Source of the DNA: Geomonas sp. RF6
GTDB lineage: Bacteria > Desulfobacterota > Desulfuromonadia > Geobacterales > Geobacteraceae
Direction of reading: 5' to 3'
DNA: 64,000 nucleotides
Assembly (NCBI RefSeq): GCF_021044625.1
Contig: NZ_CP087999.1
Span: forward strand, 265,001-329,000
Part shown: positions 2,669 to 7,823 of the stretch, piece after piece
Layout of the letters: every line of letters starts with the position of its first letter
Position numbering within the stretch: position 1 is the stretch's first letter
Notes under the pieces: model-generated
What the model was told of the DNA's origin: nothing
The model's database searches: none
Seen by the model: the letters and a program-made list of their open reading frames with translations, nothing else
Position numbers and translations under genes: made by a program

Positions 2669-3063
2669 TTCAGCTCCTGCAATAAAGAGAGATAACAGTG
2701 GGTGAAGCAGATATTTTACTCTTAAAGGTCTGATGCCAGCTGCCGATACAGTACAAATGCGCTCATTCAACGCATAGGTAGGGTGGCTATGACAGGCGAC
2801 ATGCTGCATTATACTCAGGAGAGGAAAATCTTTCTGCAATGCAGAGGAGTTATAACAAAGCCGGCACCGAAATCAAGGCATCAGCAGGGAAAACGCGGTT
2901 CCCCCCCAGGACCTGGTGACACGGCGGCCTTTCCCGGTACAGTGGCGGCCAAAAATAAAGAGGATATAATGAAGGCACCAACTCCACTCCCGGTATCTGC
3001 TGGCCACTATTTAAGCACAACCTCCCATGGCTATCTAACGACACTCCGCAAAGGATCGACACC
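2669..3063. other. Divergent intergenic region
   Basis: This 395-base gap separates gltB (-) from the DUF2844 gene (+). A perfect TATAAT at 2965-2970 lies 94 bases before the DUF2844 start and may be its -10 element, but no good -35 box sits at the expected distance. I see no riboswitch fold that I can name and no believable gene; an open frame at 2783-3067 has no ribosome site and no recognisable content. Confidence 0.5.
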
Positions 3064-3534
3064 ATGACACGAAGGCTTCCCTCACTTGTTACCACAGTGG
3101 CCCTTGCAGCGAGTGTGCTGGGGCTCCCCCAGCAGGCGACGGCCACCCTCGGTGAACCGGCAACGTCTGTCGCAGCGGACCGGAAGGCGCTCGGTGCAGT
3201 GCAGCGCGCCACCACCATCCAGAAGAATTACACCGTCCAGGAAGTCGTCTCTCCCTCAACGACGGTTCGTGAGTTCGTCAACGCTTCCGGGGTCGTCTTC
3301 GCCGTCGCCTGGAAGGGGCTCGTGCCCCCCGATCTCACCACCCTGCTCGGGAAGTTCGCGCCGGAGTACCAGGACGCGGCGGGGAAGACCCCGCGGGTGC
3401 CGGGGCGCAAGCGGATGCAGGTAAACACGGACCGGATCGTCGTTCAAAAATGGGGCCACATGCGGGCCCTGCAGGGGCGGGCGTATGTCCCCGCACTACT
3501 GCCTTCTGGGGTGACCATCGATGAGATCCAATAA
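3064..3534 (+). CDS. DUF2844 family secreted protein
   Basis: A 156-residue protein starting at an ATG with AAGGA eight bases upstream. Residues 1-28 form a Sec signal peptide (MTRR, hydrophobic TTVALAASVLGL, then ATA before TLGEP), so the product is probably periplasmic or secreted. The mature start LGEPATSVAADRKAL and the central REFVNASGVVFAVAWKG are the features by which I recognise DUF2844. Function is unknown for the family. The gene overlaps the DUF3443 lipoprotein gene by 14 bases, so the two are translationally coupled; from general knowledge these families often occur side by side. No catalytic motif is visible. A role as partner, inhibitor or substrate of the DUF3443 protein is inference only. 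Confidence 0.8.
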   Translation: MTRRLPSLVTTVALAASVLGLPQQATATLGEPATSVAADRKALGAVQRATTIQKNYTVQEVVSPSTTVREFVNASGVVFAVAWKGLVPPDLTTLLGKFAPEYQDAAGKTPRVPGRKRMQVNTDRIVVQKWGHMRALQGRAYVPALLPSGVTIDEIQ

Positions 3535-4750
3535 ACTGCGTACAGCCCTTTTCCTCGTCGTGCTTCTGGCAGGCTGCGGCGGTGGCGGCGGTGGCGACAA
3601 TAACAACAACAATCCGCCTCCGCCCCCTACAGGGTCGAACGAGCTGACCGTCACCGTGAACGGCGCGCTTGCCGACCCCGCCACCTCCTCGGGGTACATC
3701 AACAAGCCCGCGGTGAGCGTGACGATTTGCGAGCCGGGGAGCACCACGAACTGCCAGACGATCAACGACATCCTCCTCGACACCGGCAGCTACGGCCTGC
3801 GCATCTTCAGCAGCGCCATAACGGTGCCGCTGACCCAGGTCCCAGTCGGCCCGGCGACCCTCGGCGAATGCATCCACTTTGCTGACGGAACGACCAGTTG
3901 GGGACCGGTGAAGATTGCCAATGTCATTCTGGGTGGTGAGCCCGCAGTGCAGGTTCCGATCCAGGTGCTCGACACCTCCTTCTTCCCCCAGGCGATCACC
4001 GGACCGGGCAGCGTGTGCGGCACACCCGATGCTTCCCCCGCGGCTGCCGGATTCCACGGCATCCTCGGCGTCGGTGTCTTCGCGCAGGACTGCGGGCCCG
4101 GCTGCGTCAGCAGCAATGCAAACCGCGTCTACTTCGCCTGCAGCGACAGCAACTGCACCGGAACCAGCGTTCCCCTGGCGGCGCAGGTACAGAACCCGGT
4201 TTCTGCGCTCCCGCAGGACAACAACGGGGTCCTGATCCAGCTTCCCGCGGTGCCGACGACCGGCGCCCCCCTTGTCAACGGGAGAGTCCTCCTCGGCATA
4301 GGTACTCGCCCCAACAACACCCCGGGCACGGTGACGACCTTCTCCGTGGCCACCACGGGGAACTTCCCGACCTTCTTCACCACCTTGAACGGCACGACCT
4401 ACAACAGCTTCCTCGATACCGGCTCCAACGGCATCTTCATCCCCGCCAGCGCCAACCTGCTGCCGGTGTGCGCCTCGCCGTTCGACGCGTGGTATTGCCC
4501 GCCTGACACCACCACCATCAACGTCACCAACAGGGCGGCCACAGGATCGGTCAGCGCCCCGTTGAGCTTCCAGATCGGCAATTTCCAGTCCCTCATCAAC
4601 ACGGGGAACAACGTCTTCAACGACATCGGCGGCCCGAGTCCCGGCTCCGAGATCGACTTCGGGCTCCCCTTCTTCCTGGGGCGCGATGTCTTTATCGGAT
4701 ACGAAGGACGCAGCTCGACACTCGGGACAGGGCCATACTGGGCCTTTTGA
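3521..4750 (+). CDS. DUF3443 lipoprotein with duplicated pepsin-like DTGS motifs
   Basis: A 409-residue protein. Residues 1-18 are a lipoprotein signal peptide with lipobox LLAGC (Cys19), followed by a Gly/Asn/Pro-rich linker (20-38) that would hold the body away from the membrane. Two aspartic-protease-like motifs are visible: LLDTGSYGLRIF (Asp87) and FLDTGSNGIFIP (Asp299). HGILGVG at 179-185 resembles the segment after the flap in pepsins, and LPFFLGRDVFIGYEG at 382-396 the C-terminal strand. Ten or more cysteines could form disulfides. The family is DUF3443, officially of unknown function; a bilobal pepsin-type fold is my inference from the two motifs about 212 residues apart. The start overlaps the upstream DUF2844 gene and a terminator follows, so this is a two-gene operon. 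Confidence 0.8.
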   Translation: MRSNKLRTALFLVVLLAGCGGGGGGDNNNNNPPPPPTGSNELTVTVNGALADPATSSGYINKPAVSVTICEPGSTTNCQTINDILLDTGSYGLRIFSSAITVPLTQVPVGPATLGECIHFADGTTSWGPVKIANVILGGEPAVQVPIQVLDTSFFPQAITGPGSVCGTPDASPAAAGFHGILGVGVFAQDCGPGCVSSNANRVYFACSDSNCTGTSVPLAAQVQNPVSALPQDNNGVLIQLPAVPTTGAPLVNGRVLLGIGTRPNNTPGTVTTFSVATTGNFPTFFTTLNGTTYNSFLDTGSNGIFIPASANLLPVCASPFDAWYCPPDTTTINVTNRAATGSVSAPLSFQIGNFQSLINTGNNVFNDIGGPSPGSEIDFGLPFFLGRDVFIGYEGRSSTLGTGPYWAF

Positions 4751-4761
4751 TCGTGCCAACG

Positions 4762-4790
4762 AAAAAGCCCGCGGAAGCGGGCTTTTTTTT
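4762..4790 (+). terminator. Intrinsic terminator after the DUF2844/DUF3443 operon
   Basis: An 11-base-pair stem (AAAAAGCCCGC / GCGGGCTTTTT) with a GGAA loop is followed by a run of eight T, 12 bases after the DUF3443 stop codon. Confidence 0.9.
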
Positions 4791-4845
4791 GAAGGTTCTT
4801 CTGGGAATTCCGGGGAAGGCGCTACAAAGAATCCAGGTGCCCGCA

Positions 4846-5550: not shown

Positions 5551-7161
5551 ATGCAGAAGTTTCGGACCATGGCGTTATCCCTCATCCTCGCCGCTTTTCT
5601 CAGCGGTGCAGCCTTCGCCCAGGGGGACAGCAGCGAAATTCCGGCGCAGGTGTCCAAAGAGCATTGGGCGTGCAAAGAACTGACGGAGCTTTCCGCCAAA
5701 TACGGCGCGCCGGCCTCCCTCCCCCAGAAGGAGGTTCTGGAGAAGAAGGAGCTCGCCTCTCAACTCCTCTCCCTCATGGACAAGGTGCTGGAGAAGTGCG
5801 AGAAGGAAGGGCCCGAGGCGGTCCCGGCGCATGATCTGGAACAGCTCGCCGCCCTGCACCAGGCACTCCAGGGGGAGCTCGCCCAGTATGAGGGGTACGA
5901 GGTCCGCCGCGAGGCGATCGAGAAGATGCTGGCGAAGCCCGAGACGCCGGAATTTCTGTACAAGGCGGGGGTGAACGGCTTCCTGCGCGGCGAGGGTGTG
6001 CGCAACTTCCACCTCCCGGACTTCAGCTACACCCCCGACCACGGGGAGGGGCGCTTCCTGTACAGGGTGAAACCGTACCTCTACTGGCATCCGACCGACT
6101 GGCTGGACATCCACGCCGAAGGGCAGGGGTACGGCTACCGCGGCGGGAGCCACCAGGAATACAACAAGTTCTCCCTATACCAGGGGTTCGTGCAGGCGCG
6201 GATTCCGGGAAGTGATGTGGTGACCCTCAAGGGAGGGCGCCAGGAATTCGAGTACGGCAGCGCCTTCATCCTCGGTCCGGAAGCGTTCTACGACGGCCTC
6301 TCCTTCGACTCCGTCCTCCTTCGGGTGAAGCCGGTCGAGCCTCTTACCGTCGACGTCCTCGCAGGAAGCTACGCCACCCCCTTTTCCAACGGCATCGAAG
6401 GAAACCTCGCCGGCGCCTACGCCACCTGGGCCTTCTCCGAAAACAACACGCTGGAAGCCTACGCCTTCCGCGACTCCGGGTCCGACGATCACCATGGCGG
6501 CGAATACCGCGCCACCTGGGGACTCAGGGGCACCGCCAGGGTAGGGAACGTGGCACTGGAAGTCGAACCGGTATACCAGTCCGGGAAGACCTTCAACAGC
6601 GTACGGGAAGCCAACGACCGCATCGAGGCGTACGGCGGCCACGTCGACCTCTCCAGCGAGGGGAACATCGGCGGCTACAACAACAAGTTCTTTGGCAGCT
6701 TCGCCTACGGCTCCGGCAGCAGCGAGGCAGCGAACGGCGTCTCCGGCAGGCGCGAGTTCGTAAACCAGAATACCGACAGCTCCCTCACCGGCGACATGAA
6801 CGTCATCGGCGATCTCTCCGGCATCGACGTCGGCGACCACCACGCCAGCGGGGTACAGATCTACACGCTCGGCTGGGGTATCGACCTCACCAAGGACCTC
6901 AACTTCTCCGCCACCGGGCGCTACTTCCGCGCCAACAAGGTCGAGGAGGGTTTCAGCAAGAACCTCGGCCTGGAGACCGACTTCACCGTCACCTACAACG
7001 TAAGCGATGCTCTTTCCTTCATTCTCGGCTACGACCGCTTCTTCACCGGCAACTTCTTCCGGAACGCCACCGGCAGCGGTGACGACATCGACTACACCTA
7101 CCTGATGCTGCAGTTCGACATCTCCAAGAGCAAGCCGAAAGCTAAAGCCCGCAAGGGGTAA
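5551..7161 (+). CDS. Outer-membrane porin with N-terminal SLH-like domain, iron-locus associated
   Basis: A 536-residue protein with ribosome site AGGAGGG upstream. Residues 1-23 are a signal peptide ending AFAQ. Residues 30-60 (VSKEHWACKELTELSAKYG) resemble one S-layer-homology repeat, followed by a helical Lys/Glu-rich segment to about 150. From residue 160 onward the protein alternates aromatic and polar residues in beta-strand style and ends LMLQFDIS plus a short basic tail, as in porin or alginate-export-type barrels. The order SLH-helix-barrel is that of iron-uptake porins described in cyanobacteria. It precedes feoA-feoA-feoB and has a Fur box in its promoter, so I infer a channel for iron passage across the outer membrane. 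Substrate specificity is not proved. Confidence 0.75.
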   Translation: MQKFRTMALSLILAAFLSGAAFAQGDSSEIPAQVSKEHWACKELTELSAKYGAPASLPQKEVLEKKELASQLLSLMDKVLEKCEKEGPEAVPAHDLEQLAALHQALQGELAQYEGYEVRREAIEKMLAKPETPEFLYKAGVNGFLRGEGVRNFHLPDFSYTPDHGEGRFLYRVKPYLYWHPTDWLDIHAEGQGYGYRGGSHQEYNKFSLYQGFVQARIPGSDVVTLKGGRQEFEYGSAFILGPEAFYDGLSFDSVLLRVKPVEPLTVDVLAGSYATPFSNGIEGNLAGAYATWAFSENNTLEAYAFRDSGSDDHHGGEYRATWGLRGTARVGNVALEVEPVYQSGKTFNSVREANDRIEAYGGHVDLSSEGNIGGYNNKFFGSFAYGSGSSEAANGVSGRREFVNQNTDSSLTGDMNVIGDLSGIDVGDHHASGVQIYTLGWGIDLTKDLNFSATGRYFRANKVEEGFSKNLGLETDFTVTYNVSDALSFILGYDRFFTGNFFRNATGSGDDIDYTYLMLQFDISKSKPKAKARKG

Positions 7162-7596: not shown

Positions 7597-7823
7597 GCAA
7601 TCTCGCAAAGATAAAGCCGGGGGAGAAGGGAAAGATCACCGCCATCGGAGCGATTGGGCCCCTGAAGCGGAGGCTTATGGATATGGGGGTTCTCGTGGGG
7701 GAAGAGGTGAGCGTCATCAAGGTGGCGCCTCTGGGTGACCCGATCGAGGTGAGCATCAAGGGGTACCGCCTCTCGCTCAGGAAGAAAGAGGCTGAAGGGA
7801 TCGCTGTGGAGATGGTGAAATGA
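7593..7823 (+). CDS. feoA: FeoA-family SH3 protein (second copy)
   Basis: A 76-residue protein beginning at the GTG at 7593, chosen because GGAGG lies at 7581-7585 and the codon overlaps the upstream stop. The sequence SNLAKIKPGEKGKITAIGAIGPLKRRLMDMG followed by VLVGEEVSVIKVAPLGDP is a typical complete FeoA domain, without the Cys insertion of its neighbour. It ends with an ATGA overlap with feoB, so stoichiometric translation is likely. Two FeoA proteins before one FeoB is a recurrent arrangement; they may form a hetero-complex at the FeoB G domain. Confidence 0.9.
   Translation: MSNLAKIKPGEKGKITAIGAIGPLKRRLMDMGVLVGEEVSVIKVAPLGDPIEVSIKGYRLSLRKKEAEGIAVEMVK

Follow-up and report, generated by a model that had tools for sequence, protein, structure and literature searches.

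DUF3443, a predicted pepsin-fold lipoprotein family, and its gene partner DUF2844 in Geomonas and other bacteria

Introduction

Eukaryotic pepsins need an N-terminal prosegment for folding and latency. Bacterial homologues of peptidase family A1, to which pepsin belongs, are described as rare by Rawlings and Bateman (2009, PMC2761423), who place them in seven genomes and give all of them as lacking a signal peptide; shewasin D is mainly cytoplasmic and without a typical prosegment (PMC4814920). An earlier reading of the present locus, made from the sequence alone, had likewise called bilobal pepsins rare in bacteria, but an extracytoplasmic enzyme is already known in PecA, described as a mycobacterial surface aspartic protease with DTG and DSG motifs (PMC6819658). 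RloA is a bacterial retropepsin-like aspartic protease that has a signal peptide, is secreted and carries a DTG motif (PMC12239564). Here we analyse two overlapping genes in a 64,000-nucleotide stretch of Geomonas sp. RF6 (contig NZ_CP087999.1, positions 265,001 to 329,000; the window), which encode a small protein of family DUF2844 and a lipoprotein of family DUF3443. We consider it likely that DUF3443 is an extracytoplasmic pepsin-type aspartic endopeptidase with DUF2844 as its dedicated exported partner. The fold and the pairing of the two families are well supported; catalysis by DUF3443 is probable.

Like the members of A1 (pepsin, cathepsin D, endothiapepsin, plasmepsin), DUF3443 has a predicted bilobal fold over the whole chain, two Asp motifs, a GILG sequence in lobe 1 and a flap-like segment. 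Unlike them, it is a bacterial lipoprotein with no conserved prosegment and a separate partner gene, and it has Phe for the flap Tyr75, Arg94 for Trp39 and Asp-aromatic-Gly in lobe 2. Because the second psi-loop motif fails and the flap Tyr departs from the A1 criteria (PMC2761423), we call the protein pepsin-like and leave it outside A1; a new family of clan AA, next to A1, is the placement that suits it best. Shewasins A and D are also bilobal, with two catalytic Asp and no prosegment, but they have no signal peptide (PMC2761423, PMC4814920), whereas DUF3443 has an export signal, conserved Cys residues and the DUF2844 partner. The C-terminal domain of PecA and PE_PGRS16 (PE-PGRS_C, PF20729) gives a weak profile match in five of 80 DUF3443 members. 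PecA, however, is described with a PE domain and type VII secretion, and DUF3443 with its lipobox and linker differs from it; Pfam found no N-terminal PE domain in the window protein, and a profile search did not find PF20729 in the window's genome (0/1). RloA and RimB share the DTG motif, and RloA also the signal peptide, but they are of retropepsin type with an N-terminal DTG, whereas a single DUF3443 chain combines two lobes with two DTG motifs. Our literature search, mostly outside subscription journals and preprints, found no paper naming DUF3443, DUF2844 or their Pfam and InterPro numbers and none on bacterial pepsin lipoproteins. DUF3443 is apparently an undescribed, though real and well-conserved, family of pepsin-fold lipoproteins.

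Results

DUF3443 is predicted to form a complete bilobal pepsin fold

AlphaFold2 (AF2) modelled residues 34-409 of the DUF3443 protein from 80 aligned sequences with a mean pLDDT of 94.1 and a pTM of 0.93. Searching structures with this model, Foldseek placed plasmepsin I and endothiapepsin on top (best E 7.9e-12; 418 matches at E <= 0.001), with rhizopuspepsin, BACE1 and renin also high in the list. VIA-align 2 superposed the model on the Irpex aspartic proteinase 1wkr (Z 24.2, 281 residues, 2.9 Å) and on human pepsin 1psn (Z 23.0, 270 residues, 2.7 Å), and the 50 matches listed had Z scores of 22.3-24.2 at 12-21% identity. The alignment with 1psn spans model residues 6-376 and pepsin residues 1-322; since the matches to 1wkr and 1psn start at model residue 5 or 6 and end at 376, both lobes are covered. 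PE_PGRS16 (4ehc) was not among the 50 matches listed by Foldseek or VIA-align, which excludes nothing.

In model numbering, Asp87 terminates strand 45-54, Asp299 comes after strand 259-265 and GILG lies on strand 147-151. The model gives, with very high confidence, a complete bilobal pepsin fold with one motif per lobe, and its superposition on pepsins would bring Asp87 and Asp299 into one cleft. The sequence-only reading had taken the protein for a two-lobed pepsin relative, and structure prediction agrees with it. A retropepsin-type dimer with one lobe per chain is excluded by the presence of two lobes and two DTGS motifs in a single modelled chain.

Both motif aspartates are conserved across the family

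Relatives were collected first by a pattern scan of genome contigs, which gave 139 relatives, the best 80 of which were used. Because the scan pattern includes Asp87, these loci are no test of that residue. Further members came from profile searches of genomes and from tblastn against plasmids. A first set comprised 40 loci, seven of which (L096-L102) duplicate contig-scan loci and the rest of which are mostly best-scoring matches; both Asp87 and Asp299 are present in 40/40. An additional 32 loci were picked to take in diverged and broken copies. Merging to non-identical full-length DUF3443 domains left 142 rows, with 19 pieces left out (fragments, cut copies, the scrambled L071 and the distant L165). 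Setting aside L141 and L166, in which the frame is broken before the first motif, and L010, which repeats L002/L030 but is truncated at the end of its locus, gives 139 intact members, which include the window's own protein, share kinship and are not independent. Alignment A4 was built from the window sequence and all but one of the 80 contig-scan loci (79, L071 left out), and alignment A5 from the window sequence and 73 of 74 references (a short piece of L093 left out).

In the window protein the two motifs read LLDTGS (Asp87, codon 3779-3781) and FLDTGS (Asp299, codon 4415-4417), in the hydrophobic context that had been noted from the sequence; two hydrophobic-Asp-Thr/Ser-Gly-Ser/Thr motifs are an A1 criterion. 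The HGILGVG sequence, residues 179-185, is present as described, but it does not lie after the first half of the protein: it is the psi-loop of the first lobe, comparable with DGILGL of pepsin, and its I-L-G agrees with the hydrophobic-hydrophobic-Gly of A1. Asp87 is found in 139/139 and Asp299 in 138/139 distinct intact members, Gly183 in 139/139, and Thr/Ser88, Thr/Ser300 and Gly301 in 138/139 each. Of the 58 distinct members from outside the Asp87-conditioned scan, all 58 retain Asp87 and 57 retain Asp299. A chance origin of the DTGS motifs is ruled out by the Pfam matches together with the conservation of Asp across the 139 members. Members lacking an Asp had been named beforehand as evidence that would speak against the proposal, and one of the 139, L160, is such a member.

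L160 (L160:2226-4067, + strand) has Ala at position 299, is an orphan without DUF2844, adjoins a SelB gene and is likely a natural pseudo-enzyme. The first DTG reads DTA, DTM, DTK or DTE in L012, L015, L023, L041, L043, L046, L064, L080, L093, L148 and others, and DSK in L077, both Asp and the partner gene being kept in these Gly89-substituted loci; in L028 the second-lobe Gly, not the first, is Ala. Replacement of the Gly of DTG with both Asp kept is unusual for aspartic proteases.

DUF3443 genes are paired with DUF2844 genes

The coupling of the two genes, first seen at this one locus, extends to the genome samples surveyed, in which it is near-obligate. Among 297 genomes of the window's phylum, DUF3443 occurs in five, and DUF2844 occurs in the same five, adjacent to it. 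The family around a Burkholderia genome was sampled with 200 genomes, of which 90 have DUF3443, 90 have DUF2844 and 89 have both, the exceptions being G391, with only a 239-residue DUF3443 piece, and G474, with only DUF2844. Among 149 genomes from the phylum to which an Acidobacteriaceae metagenome-assembled genome (MAG) belongs, both families were found in the same two. DUF2844 is contained in 76/80 contig-scan loci and adjoins 128 of the 139 intact DUF3443 genes, upstream in 126 and downstream in two. Two of the 11 others start at a contig end (L047, L068) and one is the second copy of L069, in tandem after the paired copy. Where DUF2844 lies upstream (75 rows), 49 rows allow an overlap of the frames, which measures 14 nt in 28 rows and 4 nt in 13; for these counts the start codon was taken nearest the DUF2844 stop, with a bias to small spacing.

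The two proteins have also diverged together. Their pairwise distances correlate with r 0.83 over 66 pairs, a set that omits six loci whose copies are multiple, partial or scrambled, and 0/2000 permutations reached a value as high. The nearest relative is identical for both proteins in 34 of the 66 pairs and within the top three in 44; in two-copy genomes it agrees in L022, L080 and L091 and does not in L025, L049 and L088. No third conserved neighbour was found beyond close relatives, where the signal is that of synteny. One neighbour cluster occurs in 17 loci and is read as generic signalling proteins.

Several loci depart from the usual arrangement. Two plasmid orphans from two genera (L013:4168-7050, L014:4437-7050) carry DUF3443 without DUF2844 after a gene for a TAXI-type solute-binding protein, which is perhaps an alternative partner. 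On Burkholderia glumae plasmid pBGF2 (L012:1838-7332) the pair sits inside a cluster of chemotaxis and flagellar genes, flanked by cheZ on one side and flhB on the other, a VOC-family gene preceding flhB. In L071:3859-5154, on a low-coverage MAG contig, the DTG segment is placed after the remaining DUF3443 domain, probably through an assembly fault of tandem copies, and the locus was left out of the counts. Frameshifted or split DUF3443 genes with DUF2844-like sequence nearby occur in the Burkholderia sample (L140, L141, L151, L153, L166), which suggests turnover of the module. G321 and G405 have seven DUF3443 matches each, corresponding to about six genes, and G301 has five matches; in such multi-copy genomes some copies lie close together on one contig.

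Export and anchoring

The N-terminus of the DUF3443 protein reads as a lipoprotein signal up to LAGC20, followed by a linker rich in Gly, Asn and Pro. The strict lipobox rule is satisfied in 54/77 DUF3443 open reading frames (ORFs), and a similar Cys was recognized by eye in 17 of the remaining 23. Ten cysteine columns (70, 78, 117, 166, 191, 195, 207, 212, 317 and 326) are either invariant or conserved to 90% or more, a pattern that would fit a disulfide-bonded exported protein. The description of the protein as a lipoprotein is borne out by the lipobox here and in most relatives; export itself, of DUF3443 and of DUF2844 alike, we infer from these signals. Ten hand-picked long members are extended at the N-terminus by further domains, eight of them by Big_2, one by CARDB and one by a dockerin, and because the N-termini are so varied no conserved prosegment in cis was seen. 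The dockerin, of type I, belongs to a DUF3443 of an Oryzomonas MAG (L031:5416-7107) with no DUF2844 neighbour; the same MAG has a usual pair at another locus, L048.

The DUF2844 protein

The DUF2844 protein begins with a hydrophobic stretch, and residues 25-27 form an ATA site. It was modelled by AF2 with a pLDDT of 83.4 and a pTM of 0.75, most core blocks exceeding 90, and the model runs from a helix through a four-stranded stretch and a long helix to three strands. Among columns conserved to at least 90%, A27, L29 and G30 lie at the signal-peptidase site and the others within residues 70-147, the well-predicted core. In a comparison with PepSY and BLIP-like inhibitor folds, 4ipb of the DUF2874 family scored Z 4.1, and PepSY_2 matches one of 74 DUF2844 members (E 0.0028). 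A sequence search of the PDB with the DUF2844 profile gave three chance matches and nothing else.

Relation to aspartic peptidases by sequence

Sequence profiles barely detect a relation between DUF3443 and peptidases. Around Asp299, the window protein is matched by the single-lobe model Asp_protease_2 with E 0.005, under the cut-off, and the model also matches 9/80 members at E <= 0.1; lobe 1 of L061 (residues 38-136, profile positions 9-87 of 90) attains the cut-off with 24.3 bits. The five members matched by PE-PGRS_C, a mycobacterial aspartyl-peptidase-like domain, were found at E <= 0.1, the best at 3.7e-6. In individual Pfam scans, which covered 28 of the 80 members, this domain was absent from all 18 of two batches and a third batch of ten gave L053 (E 7.4e-4, 19.4 bits, cut-off 33); it did not match the window protein at E <= 1. 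An hhalign comparison with human pepsin gave a sensible register at a weak score, with Asp87 on Asp32, Phe120 on Tyr75 and Arg94 on Trp39. A PDB sequence search with the window protein itself returned zero matches.

Two lipoproteins of about 370 residues, L164:1653-2783 (-) and L165:1696-2802 (-), have a DTG in lobe 1 only and match the DUF3443 profile weakly, at about 23 bits, under the cut-off. They are a possible additional pepsin-like family. The ORFs beside them are presumably glycogen-phosphorylase-like.

Layout of the locus

Both genes are real, as the sequence-only reading had them: the ORFs, on the + strand with overlapping frames, are full-length Pfam matches, DUF3443 with 409 bits against a cut-off of 25 (profile positions 4-367 of 367) and DUF2844 with 148.9 bits against 22.4 (positions 1-130 of 130). 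A profile search found one match to each family in the window's genome. The frame overlap makes translational coupling likely. The pair stands alone at its locus. The upstream neighbour is divergent, an ORF that we take to be like the large subunit of glutamate synthase; downstream, an alginate-export-like porin follows at 5551, then FeoB at 7820. The hairpin that follows the pair is a probable intrinsic terminator, and is absent from the output of a separate terminator scanner.

Table 1. Coordinates of features at the DUF2844/DUF3443 locus (window positions)
Feature	Position	Strand	Basis and remarks
Weak sigma-70-like promoter match 5' of the pair, 9/12	2916..2943	+	Consensus match only
DUF2844 gene	3064..3534	+	156-residue protein, probably exported; Pfam PF11005, E 9.7e-44; AF2 pLDDT 83.4
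DUF2844 probable signal peptide, residues 1-27, ATA site	3064..3144	+	Sequence; model helix 8-20, low confidence there
DUF3443 gene	3521..4750	+	409-residue lipoprotein, predicted pepsin fold; PF11925, E 2.2e-122
Overlap of both frames, 14 nt	3521..3534	+	ORF coordinates; relatives overlap too
DUF3443 lipoprotein signal, lipobox LAGC with Cys20	3521..3580	+	Sequence; lipobox in relatives
First catalytic motif (predicted), D87-T-G-S	3779..3790	+	Asp in 139/139 intact members
Flap-like segment C117-IHFADGTTSW-G128, with Phe120 aligned to pepsin Tyr75	3869..3904	+	hhalign register, weak score
Lobe 1 psi-loop motif G180-I-L-G183	4058..4069	+	Family alignment
Second catalytic motif (predicted), D299-T-G-S	4415..4426	+	Asp in 138/139 intact members
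Lobe 2 psi-loop region I378-D-F-G-L-P-F-F-L-G-R388	4652..4684	+	Family alignment, AF2 model
Hairpin and T run 3' of the pair	4761..4791	+	z -2.8; 6/200 shuffles fold equally well

Discussion

According to the mechanism that we favour, DUF3443 would be exported, lipidated at Cys20 and tethered at the membrane through its flexible linker. Each lobe would then give one Asp (87 and 299) to a single cleft to activate a water molecule, and the activated water would cleave peptide bonds in exposed segments of proteins of the envelope or surface. DUF2844, the product of the overlapping gene upstream, would be exported to the same compartment, bind DUF3443 and govern its folding or activity, thereby substituting for the N-terminal prosegment of pepsin. 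We infer a role as inhibitor or folding helper acting in trans because DUF3443 has no conserved prosegment and has an exported upstream partner in near equal gene number. A bolder and more tentative version, to which we give rather less than even weight, is that the prosegment has turned into a separate protein, DUF2844 being a co-translated folding helper and inhibitor of DUF3443 in trans and the two forming a portable module. The range of the pair takes in Geobacter relatives, Nitrospira and, at the other end, Burkholderiaceae, and one genome may have as many as about six DUF3443 genes.

Several observations weigh against a pepsin-type peptidase with a dedicated partner. By sequence, the hhalign match to human pepsin is weak (E 0.086, probability 0.7%), a PDB search with the DUF3443 profile returned no pepsin and one chance match (glia-derived nexin, E 0.3), and the Pfam scan of the window protein reported no PF00026-type model. 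At the predicted active site, Gly89 is replaced in 17/139 members (Ala 9, Met 3, Lys 3, Glu 1, His 1), 16 of which adjoin DUF2844, and the orphan L160 has lost Asp299. The flap position is Phe120 in the window, and of the 139 members 120 have Phe there, 18 Tyr and one Ile; no homologue with Phe75 had been demonstrated to be active as of 2009, according to Rawlings and Bateman, who also report that rhizopuspepsin with Tyr75Phe retains weakened activity (PMC2761423). The second psi-loop reads Asp-aromatic-Gly (D-F-G in the window) and not hydrophobic-hydrophobic-Gly, with Asp at 379 in 82/88 alignment rows and Trp (69) or Phe (9) at 380. Six ORFs have no clear lipobox, of which L025, L031, L032, L043 and L046 apparently have a plain signal peptide and L091 is unclear. 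Finally, a fold search with DUF2844 gave no clear match: the best, SAV1118 (Z 7.5), is at chance level, in the range typical of models without a clear match, and the next were small alpha-beta proteins, immunity proteins among them. Because the DUF2844 fold resembles nothing clearly, its role is a guess.

DUF2844 might instead be the cognate substrate of DUF3443, cut or matured by it at the cell surface, as PE proteins are by PecA (PMC6819658). Likely export to a common compartment, the genetic coupling and that precedent would suit such a relation. However, a substrate family should show additional unlinked members, whereas 74 of the 89 genomes having both families show as many DUF3443 as DUF2844 matches, and DUF2844 matches outnumber those of DUF3443 in only three genomes, all of the Burkholderia sample (G458, G474 and G480). 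In four of the 15 genomes with unequal counts (G321, G335, G405 and G465) the surplus match is either fragmentary, part of a split gene or too weak for the cut-off. Moreover, the conserved columns of DUF2844 sit in the core, residues 70-147, and not in a cleavable linker. We regard this relation as unlikely.

A little less likely still, in our judgement, is the reading of DUF3443 as a pseudo-enzyme, or a binding protein with a pepsin fold, whose cleft holds a ligand or peptide. The Phe flap, the changes of Gly89 and the one natural loss of Asp299 are what would be expected of such a protein, and family A1 itself includes non-peptidase members (PMC2761423). Against this, the A1 non-peptidases named there lack conserved active-site Asp, whereas in DUF3443 Asp87 is invariant, Asp299 is missing from a single member and T or S follows each of them in 138 members. 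That the two genes are unrelated and ordinary, adjacent by chance, is very improbable: 11 of the 139 DUF3443 genes do without an adjoining DUF2844, but the families occur together in three separate samples, in shifting surroundings and with linked divergence of their distances.

The endopeptidase with a dedicated partner remains the reading that we prefer. DUF3443 adds a broad lipid-anchored pepsin-fold family, present in several phyla and provided with a dedicated partner. If it is active, it would constitute a new system of envelope proteolysis, and it would bear on the origin of bilobal pepsins and of their prosegments, with a two-gene set in which both proteins can be tested together.

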